Positions 16,745-36,346 of a stretch of 39,580 nucleotides of DNA are shown here, one piece after another. The stretch covers positions 1 to 39,580 of the IMG/VR virus record IMGVR_UViG_3300032265_001293. The stretch is one strand, 5' to 3'. The translations under genes were made by a program, and so were the position numbers. The number at the start of each line of letters is the position of its first letter. Position 1 is the first letter of the stretch. This DNA comes from a virus. Below the pieces are notes generated by a model. That model was not told the origin of the DNA. It worked only from the letters and a program-made list of their open reading frames with translations, and did not search any database.

Positions 16745-17368
16745 ATGAAGGGATTTAAGCAATATCTATCAGAAAACTCGAGCGGTGGGGGAACCCTGCA
16801 CGCATTCGACGTTGATGGAACATTAATGCACACTACCGCACGAGTCCATGTAAGAGATCAAAATGGACATCGTGTATCTTCACTTTCCCACGACGAATTC
16901 AATAACCATAAATTACATCCTGGACATCACTATGACTTTAGTGAGTTCAGATCATCACATCAATTCCACAAAGAAAAGCCAATCCGTCCGATGTTGGCTA
17001 AACTCAAAGCGATTCATAAGAATTCTCAAAAGAATCCAAAGAGCAGAGTTATAATTAATACTGCTAGATCAGACTTCGACGATAAACATCATTTCGCTCA
17101 GGCTTGGAAAAAGCATGGCGTTGATATTCACAAAATCCACGTTGAGCGTGCGGGTAATATCAAAAGCGATGAGTCGGTCGCAGCGAAGAAAGCCCAAGTG
17201 ATGAGAAAGCATTTGAAAACTGGGCGATATACAGAAGCCCACTTCTACGACGACGATAAAGAAAATCTAAGACACTTCAATAAACTTAGACACGAATTTC
17301 CTCACATTAAATTACACGCCCATCATGTGCATCCTGATGGGTCAACAAGTCATTATACGGAAGAATGA
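16745..17368 (+). CDS. HAD-superfamily phosphatase with capsid-targeting-like leader
   Basis: A 207-aa protein. HAFDVDGTLMHT carries the HAD nucleophile and acid/base Asp (Asp22, Asp24), VIINTARSD is motif II, a Lys precedes motif III, and FYDDDKENLRHF provides the motif III/IV acids. It is a likely phosphomonoesterase, possibly acting on nucleic-acid 3'-phosphates as the T4 Pnkp phosphatase does. The first ten residues MKGFKQYLSE resemble the T4 internal-protein leader (MKTYQEFIAE), with Asn following the Glu. The protein is very His-rich. The stop overlaps the next gene by ATGATG. Confidence 0.75.
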   Translation: MKGFKQYLSENSSGGGTLHAFDVDGTLMHTTARVHVRDQNGHRVSSLSHDEFNNHKLHPGHHYDFSEFRSSHQFHKEKPIRPMLAKLKAIHKNSQKNPKSRVIINTARSDFDDKHHFAQAWKKHGVDIHKIHVERAGNIKSDESVAAKKAQVMRKHLKTGRYTEAHFYDDDKENLRHFNKLRHEFPHIKLHAHHVHPDGSTSHYTEE

Positions 17369-18528
17369 TGTTAAACTTTAAATCATTTTTAAAAGAAGAA
17401 GCAGAGTTCGGTAAACTAAAACACCTCGAACATGCCGAAGATCATATCATACACCCAACTGAGCATGGCGTTCATAACGCAATAAACATATTGGATCAGG
17501 CTCACCAACATATAACGAAGGGTGTTAGCGATTCTAAGGTTAAGACAAAATGGGATGGCTCACCAAGTGTGGTATTTGGCCATCACCCACAGACTGGAAA
17601 GTTCTTTGTTGCAACAAAGTCTGCGTTCAATAAGAATCCAAAGATTAATTACACTCCAGAAGATATTGAAAAGAATCATGGCGATAAGCCAGGACTTGCT
17701 GCTAAATTAAAACATGCTCTGAAGCATTTGCCTAAAGTTGCTCCAAAGAAAGGAGTATACCAAGGCGATCTAATGCATAGCGAGGGCGATGTTAAGGGTG
17801 GTAAGTCATCGGCTTCTTTTACTCCTAATACAATTACATACACCACTCATGGCGAAGAAGCCAAGAAAGCAAAAGCATCTAAAATTGGAATCGCAGTTCA
17901 TACCAAGTATCATGGTTCTCATTTAGAGAACATGAATGCTGGTTTTGATCCAGACCTGCACAAATTTAAACATCACCCAGATGTTCACATGCTCAGCTCA
18001 GATGTCGATACTGGGAAAATCCACCATTCTCCAGAAGCTGAGGCTAATTATCAGCACCACATGGAAGCTGCTAAAGAGACACTTAAAAAAGCACCTCATG
18101 ATACTTTTGAGGTCACCCATCCGCATGCGGAACACTTGAAGACTTACATTAACAGTACGGTAAAGACTGGCGAAACGCCATCTACTGAAGGCTTTAAGAA
18201 ACATATTGAACAAAAATTAACCAATAAAGCAAAAGATATAAAGACCGAAAAGAAGAAGATCGAAAAACGTGCTGAGATAGAATCTCACTTAAGACATATT
18301 AATGATCATAAAGAACATTATAATTCACTGTTCAAAATACATCATCATCTTCAACAGGCTAAAGATGCCCTAGTTTCTTCTTTAGAAACTGGCTCCGAGT
18401 ATAACCATTCCGTTGGTAAGGAAAAAACTGGACCAGAAGGTTTTGTAATAACGCATCATGGACACCCAACTAAGCTGGTAAAGAGGAAGGAATTTTCCAA
18501 ATTTAACTTCATCAAAAGCGCGAAATAA
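17368..18528 (+). CDS. Covalent nucleotidyltransferase (RNA/DNA ligase-like) with leader
   Basis: A 386-aa protein. TKWDGSPSVVFG contains KxDG, the adenylated lysine of ATP-dependent ligases and capping enzymes (Lys61). YQGDLMHSEGD fits motif III, PEGFVITHHG fits motif IV (E-G-x-V) and KLVKRKEF fits motif V. A long His/Lys-rich helical region separates motifs III and IV. The start is taken at the second ATG, 4 bases after GGAAG; this gives MLNFKSFLKEEAE, a leader like those of T4 internal proteins. It is probably a polynucleotide ligase family member. The substrate is unknown. Confidence 0.7.
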   Translation: MLNFKSFLKEEAEFGKLKHLEHAEDHIIHPTEHGVHNAINILDQAHQHITKGVSDSKVKTKWDGSPSVVFGHHPQTGKFFVATKSAFNKNPKINYTPEDIEKNHGDKPGLAAKLKHALKHLPKVAPKKGVYQGDLMHSEGDVKGGKSSASFTPNTITYTTHGEEAKKAKASKIGIAVHTKYHGSHLENMNAGFDPDLHKFKHHPDVHMLSSDVDTGKIHHSPEAEANYQHHMEAAKETLKKAPHDTFEVTHPHAEHLKTYINSTVKTGETPSTEGFKKHIEQKLTNKAKDIKTEKKKIEKRAEIESHLRHINDHKEHYNSLFKIHHHLQQAKDALVSSLETGSEYNHSVGKEKTGPEGFVITHHGHPTKLVKRKEFSKFNFIKSAK

Positions 18529-18559: not shown

Positions 18560-20293
18560 GTGTGGGAAAATATGGAAAAAGATAAAAAAATAACATTTGC
18601 GTTTGGCAGATTCAATCCTCCAACTATTGGCCATAAGAAGCTAATAGATACTGTAAAGTCACACGCAAAAGAGCATGGCACAGACCATCTCATTATAGCC
18701 AGCCACACTCAAGATTCTAAGAAAAATCCTCTATCCCCAGAAGAGAAAGAGCATCATCTAAAGAAGCAGTTCCCCAATACCCATATTGCCATGGGAAGCA
18801 AAGAACATGCCAATATAATAGACCATTTGGATCATCTGCATAAGCAGGGCTATACCCATGCTACATTGGTTGCTGGTTCAGACAGAGTCAAATCATATAA
18901 TGATCTGATCCATAGATATAATGGCACTCATAAAGGTGCACGATATAATTTTAAGCATCTTGAAGTTAAGGATGCAGGACAAAGAGACCCAGACGCAGAG
19001 GGTACTGAGGGGGCATCAGGATCTAAACAAAGAGAACATGCCAAGGCTGGAAACTTTAAAGAGTTTGCCAGCAATGTTCCAGTTAAAAAACACGCTAAAG
19101 ATCTATACCACGCAGTGAGAAAGGGAATGAAGTTAGAAAATATCATGCCGAACTTTAAGGCATTATTTCTCGTTGGTGGTCCTGGAAGTGGAAAAGATTT
19201 CCTCATCCATTCAGTACTAGACGAATGCAAATTAAAAGAAGTATCACTAGACAAGTTGTTTACTGCTATTGTTGAGCAGACAAATATTAATGAGTTAAAT
19301 GACTTCCCATCAGTTATTGTTAATGGTAATGCAGATAATAAAGATAAGATTGTTGTTGCTAAGGTAATCTTAGAAGCAATGGGATATGATACCGCAATGG
19401 TATACGTTCATACCACAGATGAAGAATCAAAAACTAGAAATGATTCAAGAATCTTACGTGGATCAAAGACTTTTAACGAAAGTGTTCGTGAAAAGAAATA
19501 TGAACAATCAGTCTCAAACATGCACGAATATGCAGAGATGTTTGAGTCATTTGTTATATACGATAATTCAAATAACTTCTCAACAGTTAATGAAGAGATG
19601 CAGCAAGAAATTGCTAGCTGGTTAGTTGAATTATCTGACACAATTACAGGATTCCTTTCACAGTTCCCAAAGAATGAGGCGTCACTAAGATGGATTGCCG
19701 AAAGAGTTTTGGAAGTCGGAACGAAAGAAACTGCTAATTTTGCAAAGGCAATAACCCCAGGACAAGGATCGAAAAATGCTAAAACATATTCAGAAGCTGA
19801 TAGAATGGTTCCTACCAAAAGTAACAGAAACCCAAACAAAACTCCAGCAGACGGAGATAAGTGGAATGGAGGAACTCCCTCAGCAAACAAAAACGCTGCC
19901 TACATCAACACAGTCGAAGCCGTCAAAAAAGACGACAAAGAAAAAGTCGAAATCAAAAACATCAAAGACAAAAAAACCAAGCAGTCGCTCCCTCCCTCGG
20001 TAGATGGTAGAGTAGCAAGCTATGGAGTTCCATCAATGGGTGTCGCTTCAGTAGCGGGAGGAGATGTTGGTGGTTCTTTACTACAGAATGGTAATAGTAA
20101 AGGAAACAAAATACTAAACATCGGTAAAAAACAGAAAGGTAAGTTTAGAAAGTATCCAACCACTAGAGGTGGGCTTGCTAATATGAACTCTGCAACGATT
20201 GGTGGCAACATTTCAATGCAGGGATTAACAGGTCCTTATAGTACTGAAAGTATTATTAGAGAATACAAAAATATATTGAGAACAAAACAATGA
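18560..20293 (+). CDS. Bifunctional nucleotidylyltransferase / P-loop kinase with long C-terminal tail
   Basis: A 577-aa protein. Residues 11-160 are a nucleotidylyltransferase of the HIGH class: FAFGRFNPPTIGH (Gly24-His25) and VAGSDRVKSY. Residues 195-350 hold a P-loop kinase: LFLVGGPGSGKDF with Walker A at 206-213 and later Arg-rich lid residues (TRNDSRILRGS). The remaining 190 residues are low-complexity, Gly/Asn/Lys-rich. The order recalls NadR (NMN adenylyltransferase plus ribosylnicotinamide kinase), but a nucleic-acid 5'-kinase is equally possible. The start is GTG at 18560 (AGGA 8 bases upstream) or ATG at 18572. Confidence 0.75.
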   Translation: MWENMEKDKKITFAFGRFNPPTIGHKKLIDTVKSHAKEHGTDHLIIASHTQDSKKNPLSPEEKEHHLKKQFPNTHIAMGSKEHANIIDHLDHLHKQGYTHATLVAGSDRVKSYNDLIHRYNGTHKGARYNFKHLEVKDAGQRDPDAEGTEGASGSKQREHAKAGNFKEFASNVPVKKHAKDLYHAVRKGMKLENIMPNFKALFLVGGPGSGKDFLIHSVLDECKLKEVSLDKLFTAIVEQTNINELNDFPSVIVNGNADNKDKIVVAKVILEAMGYDTAMVYVHTTDEESKTRNDSRILRGSKTFNESVREKKYEQSVSNMHEYAEMFESFVIYDNSNNFSTVNEEMQQEIASWLVELSDTITGFLSQFPKNEASLRWIAERVLEVGTKETANFAKAITPGQGSKNAKTYSEADRMVPTKSNRNPNKTPADGDKWNGGTPSANKNAAYINTVEAVKKDDKEKVEIKNIKDKKTKQSLPPSVDGRVASYGVPSMGVASVAGGDVGGSLLQNGNSKGNKILNIGKKQKGKFRKYPTTRGGLANMNSATIGGNISMQGLTGPYSTESIIREYKNILRTKQ

Positions 20294-20817
20294 AAAGAAC
20301 AACAATGAATTCCCTAGTAAACGCAGTCAGAAGAGTAGTATCTGAACAGGATACTGCTAATATGGAAGCCTCAGCAAAATTAATGCTTGTTGGAGCAATG
20401 AAAAGAGTACTTGCTGATGGGTATGTTTTCTATTATGCTGCACATTCTTCTCACTGGAATGTCGAAGGCTCAAACTTCCCTCAGTATCATACGTTCTTTG
20501 AGAAAATATATACTGAAGTATTTGAGGAATTAGATAAGATTGCTGAACAAATTAGAAGCATAAATGCATACACGCCAGTATCACTAAAAGATCTATTGAC
20601 AATGACAACGATTACTGAAGCTTCTAGAGTCTATGACCCAAAAGAAATGATGTCGATGCTTGGGGTTATGAATTCAAAATTTATTGCATCAATAGATACC
20701 GCATATAGAACAGCTGATGCTGCTCATGAAATTGGTATGTCGAACTATCTTCAAGATTTAACCGATAAACAAAAGAAACTTGGCTGGATGATTGCAGCCA
20801 CATTAAAGGGCGAATAA
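20290..20817 (+). CDS. dps: Dps-like ferritin
   Basis: A 175-aa four-helix-bundle protein of the Dps family, which oxidises and stores iron and binds DNA. HSSHWNVEG is the Dps signature. Measured from His55, the ferroxidase ligands fall at His67, Glu71, Asp82 and Glu86, exactly the spacing of E. coli Dps His51, His63, Asp67, Asp78 and Glu82, with Glu replacing the first Asp. The last helix (NYLQDLTDKQKKLGWMIAAT) also matches. The N-terminus is basic (KRTTMNSLVNAVRR) followed by VVSEQD, which could be a prohead-protease site. It overlaps the preceding gene by ATGA. Confidence 0.85.
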   Translation: MKRTTMNSLVNAVRRVVSEQDTANMEASAKLMLVGAMKRVLADGYVFYYAAHSSHWNVEGSNFPQYHTFFEKIYTEVFEELDKIAEQIRSINAYTPVSLKDLLTMTTITEASRVYDPKEMMSMLGVMNSKFIASIDTAYRTADAAHEIGMSNYLQDLTDKQKKLGWMIAATLKGE

Positions 20818-20818
20818 C

Positions 20819-23077
20819 ATGAATATTTTTAGCAAACAAAACCAATCAGTAGCAGCTGCTGCCGCGAAGGTTATGGCTGAGCAACCTGCTCAAGTCAAAC
20901 CAACCACCCCAACGATTCCAAACCCAGATACGTCAATGGTCGACAGAGCTGCTGGCGTTAAAGTAACTTATGGCAGTTTATTTGGAAGAAAACTATCAGA
21001 AGAAAAGACTGAAGATGATAAGAGCGACAAGTATGCTCCTGAACACCACAGTGAGGCGGATATTAAATTAGATCGTAAACCAACTTGGCCAAAATCATCA
21101 AAACCATTAGGTAAGACAGTATCAGATTCAGCTGCCGATGGCAGAATGAAAGAAGATACCGCTGTTGGTGGTGGAAATGTTGTTGGAATGAATAGTCAAG
21201 CTGCCGCTAACTTGCCAGCACCAATTCAGAAAGAGAAAGTGGAGAAAAAGAAAATGAGAAAAGAAAGTTTTACATCAGCTGAAATTGTAAGTCATTTGAA
21301 AGAAAATACAAATGACAATGGCTGGTATGTTGATACTAAGAAAATCGGTACACCAGTTAACCACAAGTATCTTTCTCCAATGGCAGTTAAGAGACACGTA
21401 ACTGAAGCTATCATTGAAATGAATCAGATCGATCAGATTAATGAAGAAGCTGATATTTTAGAAGGTGCTATTCGCATTTCACAAATCCAAGTACATCCAT
21501 ATGAAAGTGGGTTTGCCGTAACACTTCATAGTAATAACGGTCCTCATTCTATGGAAACGCATCCAACTAAGGCAGCAGCTGTGAAGTCTGCTCATGAATG
21601 GCATAGAGCAACTGGTAAGGAAGCTAAGTTGCATCTTCCTGAAGAAGTCGAGCAGGTTGATGAATCTTTAACGCACACATTAATGCATGGCGCAGCACTA
21701 GGAGCTGGTGCAGTTGGTGGAATTGGAGCATTGGCTCTTGGGAAACATATGGTAAAAAGCGCAGTACATAGTGCCCATAATACGATTATGAGAAATCGTA
21801 TAAAGAAAGCAACAGAACAACGTCGAAATACTATGTTCGCAAAGGCTAAAGATGCTGCTGAAAAAGAAGGACATAAAGTTGACGTCAGCTCTATGCATGT
21901 CAAGGGAAGTGCGTCAGCTATACACCCAAATCATACAGTACATTTCAATTCAGACAAAGGACCACATAAGTGGAATCCGAGAACTGGCACCATCACCAAA
22001 CACACAGGAAGTTCTGTCAAAGAAGAAGTCGAGCAGGTTAATGAAGGACCATTTTCTTCTGGGGCTTTAAAGCCAACTCAGGCGATGCTCGATAAAAGCA
22101 ACTCTATCGAAAGCCATACAACATTTCGGGGTAAAGATAAAAGGGGTACATATACAGCTAAGTTGCATCGTCCAGCTGGTTCTTCTGACCATAAAGAAAT
22201 TTCTAGAGTTTATGATACAGATGAGTCTGTTGATCTCGATGAGGGTGGCATGCCTTCTAGCGTAATTAAGAGCAAGCAAGCTAGAGAAAAGATGTCACCA
22301 GAAGATTTACATGCACATGTTAAAAGTCTTCAAGCCAAGGGTGGTCCTATATTTGGCGGTAAGTCTGTAGAACACATTGCTAGAGAAATGGCATGGAGCC
22401 ATGGTCATGGTAAGATGTCACCTCATTATTGGAATAGAATTAAACATCTAGAACCTAAGAATGAAGAAGTCGAGCAGGTTGAAGAAGGTAAGGCACCTTT
22501 TGATATAAAAAACAAATTAAGAAAACTACATGGTGGTTTTGGAAAAATTAAACAAAAAGGGAAAAATACCTTTACGCACACTTCTGAAGGTGATAACGAA
22601 GATGGAGATCCAGCCAAAATTACACACACGTATAACCTAAACAAAAAAGGTAAGCTTGTTCACATAGGCACACAATCGGTTGTAGAAGAAGTCGAGCAGG
22701 TTGATGAAGGTACTCCAGAATTTAATGCAAGGGCATTGCGTTATGCTAAAGCTAATGCAGCAGAAAAAAATAAAGAAGGTAGATATAGCAAGAAATATCC
22801 TGGTGGTAAAGAACAACACGCTAAAGATACTGCTGCGTTCATGAAACGCTTTCCAGCACCAAAGAATGAAGAAGCTGAGCAGCTAGAAGCAGTTCAAAAG
22901 GCACCACAGTATCCTGTACAGGAAGCTGATAGTGATCTTCCTTTTGAAGGACCATATAAGAAATCTGGTCCTCATAAGGATAAGTTTGGAAACCCAGTTA
23001 AGAATGTTGCAAGACATTTAGCAAAGAAAGGTTTAGCAACAGCACTAAGAGCAGTTGCAAAGAAAAAAGGTAAATAA
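20819..23077 (+). CDS. Long modular virion-type protein with repeated EEVEQVDE linkers
   Basis: A 752-aa, Lys/Glu-rich protein without a recognised catalytic domain. It consists of segments separated by near-identical linkers EEVEQVDE (about residue 276), EEVEQVNE (about 403), EEVEQVEE (about 550), EEVEQVDE (about 624) and EEAEQLEA (about 685). Segments include a Gly/Ala hydrophobic helix after the first linker, a MSPEDLHAHVKSL helical module and a basic C-terminus. Each linker offers a (L/I/V)-x-E site like that cut by T4 gp21 protease, as does KVMAEQ near residue 22. It may be a polyprotein of internal head peptides or a scaffold-like protein. Confidence 0.6.
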   Translation: MNIFSKQNQSVAAAAAKVMAEQPAQVKPTTPTIPNPDTSMVDRAAGVKVTYGSLFGRKLSEEKTEDDKSDKYAPEHHSEADIKLDRKPTWPKSSKPLGKTVSDSAADGRMKEDTAVGGGNVVGMNSQAAANLPAPIQKEKVEKKKMRKESFTSAEIVSHLKENTNDNGWYVDTKKIGTPVNHKYLSPMAVKRHVTEAIIEMNQIDQINEEADILEGAIRISQIQVHPYESGFAVTLHSNNGPHSMETHPTKAAAVKSAHEWHRATGKEAKLHLPEEVEQVDESLTHTLMHGAALGAGAVGGIGALALGKHMVKSAVHSAHNTIMRNRIKKATEQRRNTMFAKAKDAAEKEGHKVDVSSMHVKGSASAIHPNHTVHFNSDKGPHKWNPRTGTITKHTGSSVKEEVEQVNEGPFSSGALKPTQAMLDKSNSIESHTTFRGKDKRGTYTAKLHRPAGSSDHKEISRVYDTDESVDLDEGGMPSSVIKSKQAREKMSPEDLHAHVKSLQAKGGPIFGGKSVEHIAREMAWSHGHGKMSPHYWNRIKHLEPKNEEVEQVEEGKAPFDIKNKLRKLHGGFGKIKQKGKNTFTHTSEGDNEDGDPAKITHTYNLNKKGKLVHIGTQSVVEEVEQVDEGTPEFNARALRYAKANAAEKNKEGRYSKKYPGGKEQHAKDTAAFMKRFPAPKNEEAEQLEAVQKAPQYPVQEADSDLPFEGPYKKSGPHKDKFGNPVKNVARHLAKKGLATALRAVAKKKGK

Positions 23078-23351
23078 CATGGATATTAAACTAGAAGAAG
23101 AAAAAATTAATCGCATGCGTCATGAAGCAATGATGCATTCTAACGCAAATGGTTTGACTAGAACTCTAGTTAATATGCGCAAGCAAATTGCTGAAGCTGT
23201 TGCTACGGTTTCTGCTGCAAAAGCTAAGTTGAAGGCGACAGAGAAAGGAAGCTGGAAGAAATCCTATGCCCCTGAAACTGAACCTAAAGAAATTCAAAAG
23301 ACTCACAACCCAGGCAAAATCTATCACGAAGAAGCTGAGCAGGTTGATGAA
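21641..23351 (+). repeat. Six dispersed copies of a 24-base linker repeat
   Basis: Copies start at 21641, 22022, 22463, 22685, 22868 and 23328, all in frame, encoding EEVEQVDE-type peptides. The first and fourth are identical over 24 bases; the second and third differ from them by one base each. The core GAAGAAGTCGAGCAGGTT is identical in four copies, including synonymous positions, which points to DNA-level copying of modules. The last copy lies in the next gene. Confidence 0.9.
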
Positions 23352-24323
23352 CTCAAGAAGGCAACTCTACGTTCATATGCAGCAAAGCGTGGAAGCCAAC
23401 CAGATGAGGGCAAGAATGGTGCCAATATTGCTCTAGCCCTAACTAAAGCCGCTGGCAAGCCACCATTTCCTGGAATGAAGAAAGCCAAAGTCAACGCAAC
23501 AGAGGATAATGAAAGCCATACTCATGCCGCTCATTTCGAAAATGATAAGGGTGAGTGGACTGGAATGCAATTATTCACAGCTAAAGACGATGATGATGCT
23601 ATTAAGAAAGCCCATGAACTTGCTAAAGAACATGGAAAACTCTCAAGTGTCGTTAGGCATGTTCAAATAAAAGAAAGTGAGATTCTCGATGAAGCCCCAT
23701 TAACAAAGGCAGAAAGAGAAGCCAAGAGAGCTGCACGTAATGCCCGCATGGCTGGCTCTGTAAAGAATGCTGTGCAGAAACTTAGTACTGCAGGAAAAAA
23801 GAAAGCAGGATTAACGAAACCTGAACCTAAGAAACCTGAAGAAACACCTCTACAGAAAATTAAAAGAGCAAATCAAGCCAAACAAGATGCTTATTATGCT
23901 AAGGGTGGTCGTGAAGGATTTGGATCAGGTGGTGGTACAAGAAATGCTTCCCCACTAGAAAAGGCAATAACAGCCGTTAAGGAAAAGCCATCAAAAGGTG
24001 CTGGAGCATCACCAGCTGAAATTGAAGCTGAAAAAGAAAGAAAGAAAAAAGAGTCCATGGCTGGTTATGAGAAAGTTAAACCACTAAAGGGTAAAATTAT
24101 TGGAGAAGATCTTAAAGTCGGTGATAAAGATGACGACGGAAAGATGGAAGTCGACAAAAGAACTGGTGGTATCATCAAACAGTCACAATCGCTTGTTGAC
24201 AAAGCCAAGAGAAAATATCTTGGTGTAAAGAAAGGCAAAACAGCGACTGGATCAGCGGCGCATGCGATTGATACCGAACCAAAGATCACAACGCCTGAAG
24301 ATAAGAAGTTAGGGAAAAAGTAA
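23079..24323 (+). CDS. Lys/Glu-rich structural-type protein with EEAEQVDEL linker
   Basis: A 414-aa protein starting at the ATG 1 base after the previous stop. Residues 1-60 form a charged helix with KQIAEAVATVSA. EEAEQVDELKKATLRSYAAK follows, a linker plus short helix seen in many marine phage proteins, then an alpha/beta segment (HTHAAHFENDKGEWTGMQLF), SEILDEAP, a long Lys/Ala-rich region and GDKDDDGKMEVDK, an EF-hand-like acidic loop. Function is unknown; the linkers suggest processing by the prohead protease, as in the preceding gene. Confidence 0.6.
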   Translation: MDIKLEEEKINRMRHEAMMHSNANGLTRTLVNMRKQIAEAVATVSAAKAKLKATEKGSWKKSYAPETEPKEIQKTHNPGKIYHEEAEQVDELKKATLRSYAAKRGSQPDEGKNGANIALALTKAAGKPPFPGMKKAKVNATEDNESHTHAAHFENDKGEWTGMQLFTAKDDDDAIKKAHELAKEHGKLSSVVRHVQIKESEILDEAPLTKAEREAKRAARNARMAGSVKNAVQKLSTAGKKKAGLTKPEPKKPEETPLQKIKRANQAKQDAYYAKGGREGFGSGGGTRNASPLEKAITAVKEKPSKGAGASPAEIEAEKERKKKESMAGYEKVKPLKGKIIGEDLKVGDKDDDGKMEVDKRTGGIIKQSQSLVDKAKRKYLGVKKGKTATGSAAHAIDTEPKITTPEDKKLGKK

Positions 24324-26179: not shown

Positions 26180-26419
26180 ATGCTGAAGTTTAAAGATTTT
26201 ATTTCAGAAACAGTTTGTTCCGATGGCGGCATTCGTGGACTAGGTAATGTCACAGGTGCTGCTGATGGAAGCTCAACCAACTACGCTTCGATCAATTTTG
26301 CGACAGCGGATCAAAGAAATGATATAATCCGCAAGCAAGTGTCTCAACACCAAACTTTACATGACCCACAAACCCCAGATGACCCGAAGACAGTAGATAA
26401 TAAAAAGCAGAAGAAATAA
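26180..26419 (+). CDS. Small leader-bearing protein, possible capsid cargo
   Basis: A 79-aa protein beginning MLKFKDFISETV, like the T4 internal-protein leader with cleavage expected after ISE. The remainder is polar and Gly/Ser/Asn-rich (GGIRGLGNVTGAADGSS), with a basic disordered C-terminus (KTVDNKKQKK). No known domain is visible. It is followed by a gene with a similar leader, overlapping by one base. Confidence 0.6.
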   Translation: MLKFKDFISETVCSDGGIRGLGNVTGAADGSSTNYASINFATADQRNDIIRKQVSQHQTLHDPQTPDDPKTVDNKKQKK

Positions 26420-27147
26420 TGAAAACATTTAAAGAGCATATTATCAAAACTGGTAATAAGTATCGTCTAGTTTCTAAAAAGACTGAAAAGAATTTAGGAA
26501 CATATCCTTCCAAGGCTGGTGCTGAAAAGCGCGAACGCCAGGTTCAATATTTTAAACACATGGGTGAATCTTCTAGTGATCATTGGAATGAGGCTGAAGA
26601 ACATCTAAAGAAAGCAAAAGCTGCCGAAGCCAAAAGTAGTAAATCAGACTTCCATTTTCATATGGCAGATCACCATAATGCTCTAGTTCAATGGCATGAG
26701 GGAAAGGGTCGTCATAATATTGCAGACAAACATGCCGAAAAAGCAGAACAACATCATGAGAAAGCTGTTGAACATCTCAATAGTATGAAAGAATCTTCTG
26801 ATTATTCTAAACGTCGTAAAGGTGAAGAAGATATTATTAGTGGTAAGAAACCAGCTCGTAAGAAAATTCCTAGTGTAAATGACTACTTTAAGAGACGCGC
26901 CAAAGAAAAGGCAAATGAAGAGCATACGAAGTGTGGAACACCTGAATGCTGTGGCCAGTGCGACACTGCGATTAATGAATTGAGTGCAGAGACTTTAAAG
27001 AGTTATAAAGAAAAAGCAAAAAAAGACGTTACATCAAGACCATCAGATGTTCTTTCTCATGGTAAACCAAGGTTAAGTTATTTCAATACATTGAAGGGAA
27101 TCTTCACTGTGAACAAAAAACTCAAAGCTAAAACACCAAGAGGTTGA
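26419..27147 (+). CDS. Modular His/Lys-rich protein with MKTFKEH leader
   Basis: A 242-aa protein. It starts MKTFKEHIIKTGNKYRLVSK; the leader resembles its neighbours but lacks the Glu cleavage residue. A short module, KKTEKNLGTYPSKAGAEKRE, is common in phage virion-type proteins. A His-rich helical region (FHFHMADHHNALVQWHEGKG) follows, then a Cys cluster CGTPECCGQCD that could bind metal. INELSAETLKSYKEKA resembles the DELKKATLRSYAAK module of the protein at 23079. Function is unknown; likely internal head or minor structural protein. Confidence 0.6.
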   Translation: MKTFKEHIIKTGNKYRLVSKKTEKNLGTYPSKAGAEKRERQVQYFKHMGESSSDHWNEAEEHLKKAKAAEAKSSKSDFHFHMADHHNALVQWHEGKGRHNIADKHAEKAEQHHEKAVEHLNSMKESSDYSKRRKGEEDIISGKKPARKKIPSVNDYFKRRAKEKANEEHTKCGTPECCGQCDTAINELSAETLKSYKEKAKKDVTSRPSDVLSHGKPRLSYFNTLKGIFTVNKKLKAKTPRG

Positions 27148-34537: not shown

Positions 34538-35032
34538 ATGCTATTCTGGCTACTTAAATTTTTACCTGCTATGTTGATTCATGGGTTCATGGCTGCATCT
34601 TTGCTTGCATTCTTGATCTCATTCATTCCACTTGTCCCATATAGAGTATTCTTAAAGTGGGGTGGGATCGCAGCCATTGCTTTAGGTTTATTCCTAGAGG
34701 GCTGTTTATTGACCCAACAAGCATGGGAAGCCCAAGTAGAAAATTTACAAAAACAAGTTGCTATTTCAGAAGAAAAAGCAAAGGTAATCAATACAGAGAT
34801 TGTTGAGAAGGTTGTGACGGAACAAAAAATCGTCAAAGAAAAAGGCGATGCGATTATTAAGTACATTGATCGCGAAGTGACTAAGATTGATAGCACTTGC
34901 GTTATTCCAGAAATAGTAATCAAGGTTCATAATGCTGCCGCTCTCAATACCCCAATAGAAGAAGAACAACCATTAACACCAAGCACTGTTGTAGATACTA
35001 GTGCTCATAACGCAGCGGCAATGCCGCAATGA
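34538..35032 (+). CDS. Inner-membrane spanin (Rz-like) candidate
   Basis: A 164-aa protein with two N-terminal hydrophobic segments (LLKFLPAMLIHGFMAASLLA and a second near residues 40-58) and a periplasmic coiled coil (VENLQKQVAISEEKAKVINT, VEKVVTEQKIVKEKG). A short Pro/Thr/Ala-rich tail follows. This is the usual layout of an i-spanin, which with an outer-membrane lipoprotein disrupts the outer membrane at lysis. AAGGA lies 6 bases upstream. The partner is probably the lipoprotein at 36083-36346. Spanin identity is from architecture only. Confidence 0.6.
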   Translation: MLFWLLKFLPAMLIHGFMAASLLAFLISFIPLVPYRVFLKWGGIAAIALGLFLEGCLLTQQAWEAQVENLQKQVAISEEKAKVINTEIVEKVVTEQKIVKEKGDAIIKYIDREVTKIDSTCVIPEIVIKVHNAAALNTPIEEEQPLTPSTVVDTSAHNAAAMPQ

Positions 35033-35559
35033 AAACATTTAAACAATTAAGAGAAGAAATAAACGAAGCTTGCTGGAAAGGTTATAAGCGAGTTGGCGGC
35101 AAAATGAAAAATGGCAGAATGGTGCCAAACTGCGTTCCTGTTAAAGAAGAAGAATTAAACGAAAAGAACGCACCGACTGATCCAGCTAAATGGGCAAGAG
35201 CAAAATCTGCCGCTAAAGCAAAGTTTTCTGTATATCCTTCAGCATATGCCAATGGTTGGGCAGCTAAGAAATACAAATCCATGGGTGGTGGGTGGAAAAC
35301 CCAGGAAGAAGTTGAAAGAATAAATGAAGATTTGCGCACTTGGTTCAAACAAAAATGGGTACGATTTGACACAAAGGGTAATATCAAGGGTCAATGTGCC
35401 AGAGAGCCAGGAGAAGGTAAGCCAAAATGTTTACCGCAAGACAAGGCTCACACATTAGGAAAAAAAGCAAGAGCAACTGCTGCTCGCCGTAAGCGTCGTG
35501 AAGATCCAAACCCAGATCGTAAGGGTGCACCGATTATGGTTAAAACGAAAAAGGATTAA
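35029..35559 (+). CDS. Multi-module virion-type protein with MKTFKQL leader
   Basis: A 176-aa basic protein. It begins MKTFKQLREEINEACWKGYK, a leader of the type shared by several proteins here. Modules common in marine phage structural proteins follow: GYKRVGGKMKNGRMVPNCVP, a linker VKEEELNEKN, YPSAYANGWAAKKYKS, and DLRTWFKQKWVRFDTKGNIK with GQCAREPGEGKPKCLPQDKA. Cys pairs in the last module may bind metal. The leader and linkers offer possible prohead-protease sites. It overlaps the i-spanin by ATGA. Likely internal head or capsid-associated protein. Confidence 0.6.
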   Translation: MKTFKQLREEINEACWKGYKRVGGKMKNGRMVPNCVPVKEEELNEKNAPTDPAKWARAKSAAKAKFSVYPSAYANGWAAKKYKSMGGGWKTQEEVERINEDLRTWFKQKWVRFDTKGNIKGQCAREPGEGKPKCLPQDKAHTLGKKARATAARRKRREDPNPDRKGAPIMVKTKKD

Positions 35560-35561
35560 TG

Positions 35562-36083
35562 ATGAAAACATTTAAATCATTTTTAGAAGAAGCTGCCAAC
35601 GCTGCACAACAAGCAGCCATTGCTATTGCTATGAAAAAAGCTGGAAAGAAACCAAAGAATGAAGAGGTTTCTCCAATGATTAAACCGCCAAACAGGCGAT
35701 TTGACAACAAGAGTGATGCCTTCGCTCATGTTAAGAAACATGGTGGTAAAGTTTATAAAGGAACTTATATAGATCCTAACAATGGAACAAAACATATATC
35801 TTTTCATGTTAAAGAAGAAGTAATCAACGAACGTGGCGAAGATTCAAAAGGATATAAGCGTTCAACGGAATCTGGCGCAGGTCTAACTCGCAAAGGTGCG
35901 AAGGCTATGGGAATCAAAACCGCAGTCACAACCCCACCAAGCAAACTAGATCCAAACGGAAAAGCAGCAAAGCGTCGTAAGTCTTTTTGTGCACGCATGA
36001 GTGGAATGAGAGGACCAATGAAAGATGATAAGGGTCGCCCAACTCGTAAAGCAATGTCATTGAGAAGATGGAATTGTCATTAA
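35562..36083 (+). CDS. Multi-module virion-type protein with MKTFKSFLEE leader
   Basis: A 173-aa protein. The start at 35562 is preferred over the ATG at 35559 because AAGGA is then 6 bases upstream; it gives MKTFKSFLEEAANAAQQAA, the clearest match in the window to the T4 internal-protein leader. A small beta module (DAFAHVKKHGGKVYKGTYID), a linker VKEEVINERG and a C-terminal module with KAAKRRKSFCARMSGMRGPM and SLRRWNC follow; the last is shared by many marine phage structural proteins. Probably packaged in the head. Overlap with the next gene is TAATG. Confidence 0.65.
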   Translation: MKTFKSFLEEAANAAQQAAIAIAMKKAGKKPKNEEVSPMIKPPNRRFDNKSDAFAHVKKHGGKVYKGTYIDPNNGTKHISFHVKEEVINERGEDSKGYKRSTESGAGLTRKGAKAMGIKTAVTTPPSKLDPNGKAAKRRKSFCARMSGMRGPMKDDKGRPTRKAMSLRRWNCH

Positions 36084-36346
36084 TGAGAAAATTAATCCCA
36101 CTATTACTAATTTTATCAGGTTGTGCTACTGTTCCTGTTGAAAGACATTTCCCAGAAGCACCACCAGAGTTAATGGTGAAGTGTGGCAATTTACAAACAA
36201 TAGACAAACAACAGGTTGTCTTCAGTGAGTTTTTAAAAACTGTTACTGCTAATTATACTCAGTACTATAGTTGTGTTAAATTATTAGACGGATGGCAGGA
36301 GTGGTATAAAAACCAGAAACAGAATTTCGACTCAGTGGGTAAATAA
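36083..36346 (+). CDS. Outer-membrane spanin (Rz1-like lipoprotein) candidate
   Basis: An 87-aa lipoprotein: MRKLIPLLLILSGCATVPVE has the lipobox I-L-S-G-C, followed by Pro-rich EAPPELMVKC, a pattern typical of Rz1-like o-spanins, then a helical C-terminal region with a second Cys. The ATG at 36083 is chosen because the in-frame upstream ATG would spoil the signal sequence and because TAATG coupling is present. It probably pairs with the i-spanin at 34538-35032; two other genes lie between them, which is less usual than adjacent or nested spanin pairs. Confidence 0.65.
   Translation: MRKLIPLLLILSGCATVPVERHFPEAPPELMVKCGNLQTIDKQQVVFSEFLKTVTANYTQYYSCVKLLDGWQEWYKNQKQNFDSVGK

Follow-up and report, generated by a model that had tools for sequence, protein, structure and literature searches.

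The prohead protease gp21 of phage T4 cuts after L/I-x-E and strips capsid-targeting propeptides of 10–19 residues from internal proteins (PMC9026906). In the open-access literature searched, there was no description of a prohead protease acting on polyproteins built of modules, and no phage paper linking the string EEVEQ to phages. The window analysed here is the whole 39,580-nucleotide stretch of viral DNA in IMG/VR record IMGVR_UViG_3300032265_001293. Its ORFs at 20819, 23055, 35029, 35559, and 26419 are likely (probability about 0.7) to be prohead-core polyproteins cut by a gp21-type protease into packaged modules; that they are cut, by which protease, and that the pieces are retained and ejected is inferred.

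Two large ORFs carry repeated linkers that resemble protease sites

The two largest putative polyproteins and their linkers are listed below, with an arrow at each putative cut and the supporting evidence in brackets.

20819..23077, + strand: 752-aa polyprotein ORF (ORF call, linkers, piece charges, AlphaFold modules split by low-confidence linkers)
21641..21664, + strand: linker EEVEQVDE↓S, aa 275-282 (sequence; pLDDT <50)
22022..22045, + strand: linker EEVEQVNE↓G, aa 402-409 (sequence; pLDDT <50)
22226..22243, + strand: site SVDLDE↓GGMP, aa 470-475 (module-based comparison with relatives)
22463..22486, + strand: linker EEVEQVEE↓G, aa 549-556 (sequence; pLDDT <50)
22685..22708, + strand: linker EEVEQVDE↓G, aa 623-630 (sequence; comparison with L003 and L008)
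22868..22891, + strand: degenerate linker EEAEQLEA, aa 684-691 (P1 is A, not E; predicted helical)
23055..24323, + strand: second polyprotein, 422 aa from TTG (ORF call, linker, piece charges)
23328..23351, + strand: linker EEAEQVDE↓L before an LKKATLRSY module, aa 92 onward (sequence, module comparison)
23679..23693, + strand: candidate site EILDE↓A in the 422-aa protein, aa 209-213 (sequence; the L009 equivalent is DEILDE)

The 752-aa protein contains five EE(V/A)EQ linkers, at aa 275, 402, 549, 623, and 684, against 0.002 EE[VA]EQ strings expected per protein by residue shuffling. The sequence-only reading had reported five linkers in the first protein and one in the next, which held (six positions in all); its statement that every linker contains (L/I/V)-x-E held only in part. 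The fifth linker, EEAEQLEA, has Ala instead of Glu at P1 and lies within a predicted helix, and is therefore probably not a cleavage site. Two sites had also been missed, the candidate EILDE↓A in the 422-aa protein and SVDLDE in the 752-aa protein. The latter is taken as an additional site because the module behind it follows EEVEQVDE↓ in relatives L001 and L092; the same module follows EEVDLDE↓ in L004 and EEVELDE↓ in L006. Likewise, the GTPEFNAR module is preceded by EEVEQVDE↓ in L003 and L008. P3 is Val, which lies outside the T4 consensus L/I, at five EEVEQ-type sites of the window and Leu or Ile at the others, so the gp21 site criterion is met in the broader form I/L/V-x-E.

Cutting after the linker Glu would occur at residues 282, 409, 475, 556, and 630 of the 752-aa protein, predicting the pieces 1-282, 283-409, 410-475, 476-556, 557-630, and 631-752, and at residues 99 and 213 of the 422-aa protein. 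The earlier estimate of eight or more pieces is thus plausible (nine are predicted from both ORFs), though one of the five linkers is probably no site. The predicted pieces are mostly basic, with net charges of +1 to +24; two from the 752-aa protein are slightly acidic (1-282, −3; 410-475, −1), and piece 1-282 is also not small. The description of the modules as basic therefore mostly held, and most predicted pieces meet the criterion of a small, basic mature product set by T4-type internal proteins. The modules had also been called unrelated, and this held: a Pfam search with both ORFs gave nothing above cut-off. Neither Pfam nor PHROGs searches identified an enzymatic domain in either ORF.

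An alternative ATG start at 23079 would shorten the second protein to 414 aa. Neither large protein has an evident targeting-like peptide at its N-terminus, and the 752-aa protein has no direct protein or DNA match among named phages. Modules of the two proteins are fused within single proteins in L001 and L003.

In the AlphaFold model of the 752-aa protein (pTM 0.30), the modules mostly have pLDDT values of 75–97, and four EEVEQV linkers fall entirely below 50. The modules are thus predicted to fold separately; a continuous fold across the linkers, which would have refuted the prohead-protease reading, was not predicted. Fold comparison of the AlphaFold models of both proteins with the PDB gave nothing significant (best E 0.03). 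A PC4/Pur-alpha-like fold match was weak (E 0.1) and was not relied on.

Smaller putative polyproteins and targeting-like N-termini occur elsewhere in the window

Further modules, sites, and N-terminal peptides were found at the following positions.

16745..17368, + strand: PNK/HAD-like protein with targeting-like N-terminus MKGFKQYLSE↓N
17365..18528, + strand: phrog_455 protein with targeting-like N-terminus MMLNFKSFLKE↓EA
18560..20293, + strand: cytidylyltransferase-like gene, marking the locus (annotation searches)
26180..26419, + strand: 79-aa protein with targeting-like N-terminus MLKFKDFISE↓T
26419..27147, + strand: 242-aa protein with a C-terminal LSAETLKSY module after AINE↓ (26968-26979)
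35029..35559, + strand: 176-aa polyprotein, MKTFKQLREEINE↓ followed by CWKGY, DUF5872, and LRxWF modules with a putative cut between each (domain and module comparisons)
35059..35067, + strand: INE↓A, end of the targeting-like N-terminal peptide MKTFKQLREEINE↓A (module comparison)
35146..35163, + strand: EEELNE↓K, within VKEEELNE, before DUF5872 (comparison with other phages)
35305..35328, + strand: EEVERINE↓D before the LRxWF module, aa 93-100 (module comparison)
35559..36083, + strand: 174-aa polyprotein, MMKTFKSFLEE↓ followed by a module, VKEEVINE↓, and a C-terminal DUF6321 module
35814..35831, + strand: EEVINE↓RGEDSKGY site before DUF6321 (comparison with L006, L004, and L046)

Targeting-like N-termini are thus present in the proteins at 16745, 17365, 26180, 35029, and 35559. 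The linker strings that had been pointed out in the last two proteins, VKEEELNE at 35029 and VKEEVINE in the next (placed at 35562; 35559 by ORF call), were both confirmed, and the 35029 protein additionally contains the MKTFKQLREEINE↓A N-terminus and EEVERINE. Sequence comparison of the modules of the 35029 protein with the PDB revealed no relative, only short or weak matches. Cytidylyltransferases are present in the virions of cyanophage relatives according to published virion data.

P1 and P3 of the putative site are conserved across related phages

Conservation was counted in an alignment anchored on the module LSKxTLxxY behind the linker, comprising 105 cases from related phages. P1 is Glu in all 105 and P3 is I/L/V/M in 104. 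In the 48 cases that have lost EEVEQ, P4–P8 vary, P1 remains Glu in 48/48, and P3 remains L/I/V in 47/48; the gp21 motif (L/I-x-E) is therefore the constant part. When EE[VA]EQ strings were counted without module anchoring, P1 was Glu in 96% and P3 I/V/L/M in 94%.

The same P3/P1 pair precedes unrelated modules, including GGMPSSVI, RGEDSKGY, DUF5872, MPGANM, DSLAAM, GTPEFN, and, in 12 of 20 cases, CWKGY. In other phages the boundary before DUF5872 reads LDE, LEE, IDE, LNE, or LME. DUF6321 follows MKTFMQFITE↓RGED in L006, YIAE↓RGED in L004, TLLE↓RGAD in L046, and VINE↓ in the window. CWKGY follows MKTLKDFIAE↓ in L138, MKSFIDYLIE↓ in L131, MKTFKQLREEINE↓ in the window, or an internal LDE↓ in several others. 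In this comparison, one and the same module is preceded either by an N-terminal peptide of T4 capsid-targeting type or by an internal linker. In nine gp23 sequences of this phage group, LxE (LNE, LME, LWE, LTE) is also kept before the conserved core.

The rule has exceptions. No site was found at the CWKGY boundaries of L010, L081, and L128 or before most PF(E/D)GPY modules, and some LRxWF modules have T or F at P3 of the preceding boundary. Depletion of sites within modules was not clear (60 found, 74 expected). A general test of whether alignments start near sites (466/2914 versus 1% at random) was set aside since the linkers themselves create many alignments.

The survey of relatives also showed that modules are shuffled between genes and phages. 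Linker codons differ from background (Gln CAG 0.70 versus 0.31; Val GTC 0.38 versus 0.13), and linkers within one contig have 0.83 of synonymous bases in common versus 0.60 expected.

Modules and linkers co-occur with an S77 protease, and one relative is found in virions

An S77 prohead protease is encoded by 11/11 named phages examined that carry the modules or linkers and by 9/25 larger related or linker-bearing contigs; the gene is not on the 39.6-kb fragment itself. In six phages without S77, DUF6321 forms a basic protein by itself, and no site precedes the module. In T7-like pelagiphages, this very basic small protein is encoded between the scaffold and capsid genes. T7-like connector and HK97-type capsid genes were not found on the 50 related contigs searched, with pelagiphages as the positive control for the connector model. 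The window phage is T4-like and akin to phages of marine cyanobacteria. In BUCT-ZZ01, an LSSKTLGSY module ends a 123-aa protein whose gene lies directly after portal gp20, inside the portal-protease-scaffold-capsid cluster.

Evidence for packaging comes from S-CREM2, whose protease is gp143 and whose gp160 was detected in virions by mass spectrometry (7 unique peptides, 13.1% coverage; PMC10665884). The protein is built from the three module types of the window's 35029 protein, arranged as LSE↓ with an HDWF module, NLEE↓ with a CWPGY module, and EISE↓ with a DUF5872-like module. Its neighbours gp154 (MKNFSSFLTE↓), gp155, and gp156 (MKKLISE↓) are also in the S-CREM2 virion (PMC10665884). From the published counts of its peptides, an intact gp160 is indistinguishable from a cut one. 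Packaging is shown for this relative only; the window phage is known just as a contig.

A processing pathway is proposed

In the proposed pathway, small, mostly basic modules would be joined by the acidic linker E-E-V-E-Q-V/I-D-E, whose (I/L/V)-x-E end would be where gp21, the S77-family prohead protease of T4-type phages, cuts. Precursor chains would first go into the core of the prohead; the smaller ones begin with a peptide similar to the capsid-targeting sequence of T4, and none is evident in the 752-aa protein. The freed modules would remain in the head beside the DNA as internal proteins and may be ejected into the host. Linker and module would move as DNA cassettes among genes and phages, and a few genes may thereby yield about a dozen small proteins packed with DNA.

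The basis for this reading in the present analysis is the linkers, the shared modules, P1/P3 conservation, co-occurrence of the S77 protease, and the separate predicted folds; it is further supported by the interchange of linker and targeting-like peptide and by the homologue in a virion. The suggestion that the two genes carry gp21-type sites and yield internal head peptides is thus supported by comparison; cleavage itself is not shown, and no cleavage products were observed in the data considered. Counting against it as well are the absence of the protease gene from the fragment, Val at P3 of several window linkers, module boundaries without a site, the lack of clear site depletion within modules, and the lack of an evident targeting-like peptide at the start of the 752-aa protein.

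The rival that survives best is a sacrificial core, in which the polyproteins would behave like T4 gp22 and gp67, serving as scaffold: the protease would cut them at the linkers, and the head would lose most of the fragments. T4 gp22 and gp67 fragments do mostly exit (PMC9026906), long propeptides in SPN3US undergo several cuts and are for the most part lost (PMC10052503), and the BUCT-ZZ01 gene sits in a head-gene cluster. However, the pieces are mostly basic like T4 internal proteins, a property not required of a scaffold that is removed; S-CREM2 gp160, a related polyprotein, is present in finished virions; and pelagiphage DUF6321, encoded between scaffold and capsid genes, is itself very basic and small. 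This alternative is considered unlikely.

Also unlikely is that EEVEQ(I/V)DE is solely an uncut spacer kept for DNA homology in module exchange. The unusual synonymous codons, their within-contig sharing (0.83 versus 0.60), and the shuffled modules favour it. But the (I/L/V)-x-E end persists where EEVEQ is lost (48/48 with P1 Glu), and the same end closes the N-terminal targeting-like peptides, which a recombination patch leaves unexplained. Recombination is compatible with cleavage and probably accounts for the spread of the modules.

Intact polyvalent effectors, packaged and injected with the DNA and hinged at flexible linkers, are very unlikely. Phage polyvalent proteins of 2–15 domains have been described, with a predicted injection alongside phage or plasmid DNA (PMC5512222), and relatives carry additional domains, for instance DUF192 in Bellamy gp123. 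Yet the window modules are small, mostly basic, and match no enzyme domain; the criterion of several disparate biochemical activities per chain is not met by either large ORF in Pfam or PHROGs; and hinges need neither a P1 Glu nor a hydrophobic P3. Finally, a helix cap belonging to the module's own fold is likewise very unlikely: the commonest module does begin straight after the site (DE-LSKxTLxxY), but one P3/P1 pair stands before several modules unrelated to one another, the AlphaFold model gives low confidence to the window's four EEVEQV linkers, and DUF6321 occurs without these residues in protease-less phages.

The prohead-protease reading, if true, would give a function to EEVEQ(I/V)DE, a common and unexplained string of T4-like phages in natural waters, would indicate what these phages probably carry in their virions, and would mean that phages too can use polyproteins, a strategy known above all from RNA viruses. 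Virion proteomes should then hold peptides beginning right after (I/V/L)-x-E; datasets exist for S-CREM2, S-SCSM1, and S-SM1. A bolder extension, which on balance we would not yet favour, is that, in both marine and fresh water, T4-like phages load their virions through a cassette system: a small protein joined to the linker would be co-packaged and freed by the head protease, and conserved linker DNA would allow cassettes to pass between genes and phages, so that the set of injected peptides evolves fast.

Comparison with known systems

The closest described proteins are T4 IPI, IPII, IPIII, and Alt (PMC9026906), with which the window proteins share the small size and basic character of the modules, the (L/I)xE ending of N-terminal peptides, and T4-type head genes in the same phages. 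Processing of T4 IPIII is inhibited when residue 10 of its targeting peptide is Asp (PMC9026906). Each T4 internal protein, however, is a single protein from which one short propeptide is removed. In the window-type polyproteins, a chain holds up to six or more modules, most joints carry an internal site, and modules recur in different genes and phages. The prohead core proteins T4 gp22 and gp67 resemble them in having several gp21 sites per chain, but their fragments mostly leave the head, whereas the window pieces are distinct modules, many of which are found elsewhere alone or reordered.

The prohead proteases phiKZ gp175 and SPN3US gp245 are likewise Glu-directed and act on many packaged proteins (PMC9026906, PMC10052503). 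Their substrates differ in having mostly N-terminal propeptides, often long, and the SPN3US motif is A-x-E; no module polyproteins are described in the bearing sections of these papers. Polyvalent proteins are similarly multidomain, with shuffled domains and predicted host entry with DNA, but have enzymatic domains, and the bearing sections of PMC5512222 describe no repeated protease-site linker. Pelagivirus DUF6321 proteins (HTVC168P gp31, HTVC304P gp33) contain the same module, basic and within the structural gene cluster; unlike in the window, the gene is free-standing, lacks a cutting site, and belongs to a genome without an S77 protease. Against this background, the window proteins represent a putative variant of T4 internal-head-protein processing in which modules are shuffled as cassettes between genes and phages.

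Gene neighbourhood of the candidate polyproteins

The window, a virus record of 39.6 kb, comes from a T4-like myovirus, with gp43 polymerase, UvsX and gp41 ordered as in cyanophages such as S-SM1. Two of its ORFs were proposed as prohead-protease polyproteins, and the features around them and around two smaller polyproteins (at 35029 and 35559) are listed here.

20290-20817: gene for a Dps/ferritin-like protein (PF00210, E 4e-20), lying immediately between the cytidylyltransferase gene and the 752-aa ORF
20819-23077 (+): 752-aa ORF
23055-24323 (+): 422-aa ORF
34538-35032: weak Rz-like spanin match, flanking the small polyproteins on one side
36068-36346: short lipoprotein-like ORF, flanking them on the other side

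The cytidylyltransferase and Dps-like genes lie upstream of the two ORFs, and genes for a phrog_407 protein and an endolysin lie downstream. In S-SM1, Syn19 and S-CAM22 the proteins that come after the cytidylyltransferase occupy the equivalent slot, and the genes next in order are annotated as head proteins. A virion cargo role for the DNA-protecting Dps-like product would also make sense. As listed, the 422-aa ORF starts at a TTG (23055) within the 752-aa ORF; its start is more probably the ATG at 23079, just past the stop of the 752-aa ORF. The lipoprotein-like ORF could be the outer partner of the Rz-like spanin.

A conserved motif precedes the modules

The repeated linkers claimed by the sequence-only reading are real and not due to chance: five EE(V/A)EQ strings occur in the 752-aa ORF and one in the 422-aa ORF. 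The claim that every linker carries a protease site failed for the fifth in the 752-aa ORF, which ends in LEA and misfits the motif. An additional site, SVDLDE/GGMP (slash, predicted cut), is recognisable only by comparison and was counted because its module comes after EEVEQVDE/ in the related contigs L001 and L092.

To avoid the circularity of a survey that picks out linkers by linker sequence, the commonest module after a linker, LSKxTLxxY, was used as an anchor; the search constrained the class of P1', the first residue of the module, but none of the residues upstream. P1 was E in 105/105 cases and P3 was I, L, V or M in 104/105. Both were kept in the 48 of 105 cases without EEVEQ upstream (e.g., TREKESLSE, KEDVNLQE, GDVEALDE, KQKNITE), and the identical pair begins several unrelated modules. 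The constant element is thus the protease motif, cleavage itself being inferred. Some module boundaries lack any site.

Modules also follow either internal sites or targeting peptides. T4 internal proteins carry N-terminal targeting propeptides of 10–19 residues that are removed by gp21. In L006, a related contig, DUF6321 is preceded by the targeting-like peptide MKTFMQFITE/, whereas in the window, L004 and L046 the site before it is internal. For CWKGY, the preceding peptide is MKTLKDFIAE/ (L138), MKSFIDYLIE/ (L131) or MKTFKQLREEINE/ (window 35029 protein), and an internal LDE/ stands there in L026, L119, P-TIM68 and Bellamy. The window proteins at 16745, 17365, 26180 and 35559 likewise begin with targeting-like peptides.

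AlphaFold, given a thin alignment of 18 sequences, predicted separate modules for the 752-aa protein (pTM 0.30; mostly pLDDT 75–97); the picture for the 35029 protein was similar (pTM 0.36). The four EEVEQV linkers of the 752-aa protein lie wholly within stretches of pLDDT <50. This is only mild support, because a random 8-mer in residues 141–752 does so with a chance of 0.29.

Linkers may have spread as DNA

Modules split between the two ORFs occur in a single protein in L001, and L003, another related contig, joins one module from each at an EEVEQVDE linker. Across linkers in 136 contigs, codons were non-random relative to the usage of the same genes, with GAAGAAGTYGAGCAG favoured over synonymous alternatives; synonymous-site agreement among linkers of one contig was 0.83 versus 0.60 expected from codon usage. 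These data fit linkers spreading as DNA, through recombination at linkers or duplication, which they do not distinguish.

Association with the S77 protease and head genes

An S77 protease, of the T4 gp21 family, is encoded by each of the 11 named phages examined in which these modules or linkers occur. It is present in none of six phages with stand-alone DUF6321, where no site precedes the module. As few lineages were sampled, the correlation is suggestive rather than proof. Among 50 related contigs, nearly all linker-bearing, 11 encode gp23; neither a T7-type connector nor an HK97-type capsid was found on any of them.

The pelagivirus DUF6321 gene lies between the scaffold and capsid genes. 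In two pelagiviruses (L173 561-1062; L174 636-1110) this interval holds three tiny, very basic proteins in a row (35, 48–49 and 72–81 aa), the third being DUF6321. In BUCT-ZZ01 (L168 2291-2662), a LSSKTLGSYVKKAS module preceded by LYE/ ends a 123-aa protein whose gene directly follows portal gp20 and adjoins the scaffold and capsid genes.

Comparison with published virions and T4

S-CREM2 gp160, for which Table 3 of PMC10665884 reports detection in virions (13.1% coverage from 7 unique peptides), consists of three modules in common with the 35029 protein, with joints LSE/, NLEE/ and EISE/. The S-CREM2 proteins gp154, gp155 and gp156 were likewise detected; the authors caution that an abundant non-virion protein could survive CsCl purification (PMC10665884). 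gp154 is a cytidylyltransferase beginning MKNFSSFLTE/. The S-SM1 cytidylyltransferase, also reported in virions (PMC3037559), begins MKKFSAFLNE/A, and an NMN adenylyltransferase is reported in S-SCSM1 virions (PMC9602691).

Roles of the predicted pieces in DNA binding or host takeover are a guess from charge and, by analogy, T4 precedent. T4 gp21 cleaves after L/I-x-E (PMC9026906), whereas V at P3 in the linkers falls outside this rule. In seven related contigs, S-CREM2 and BUCT-ZZ01, gp23 itself carries LxE (LNE, LME, LWE or LTE) ahead of its conserved core.
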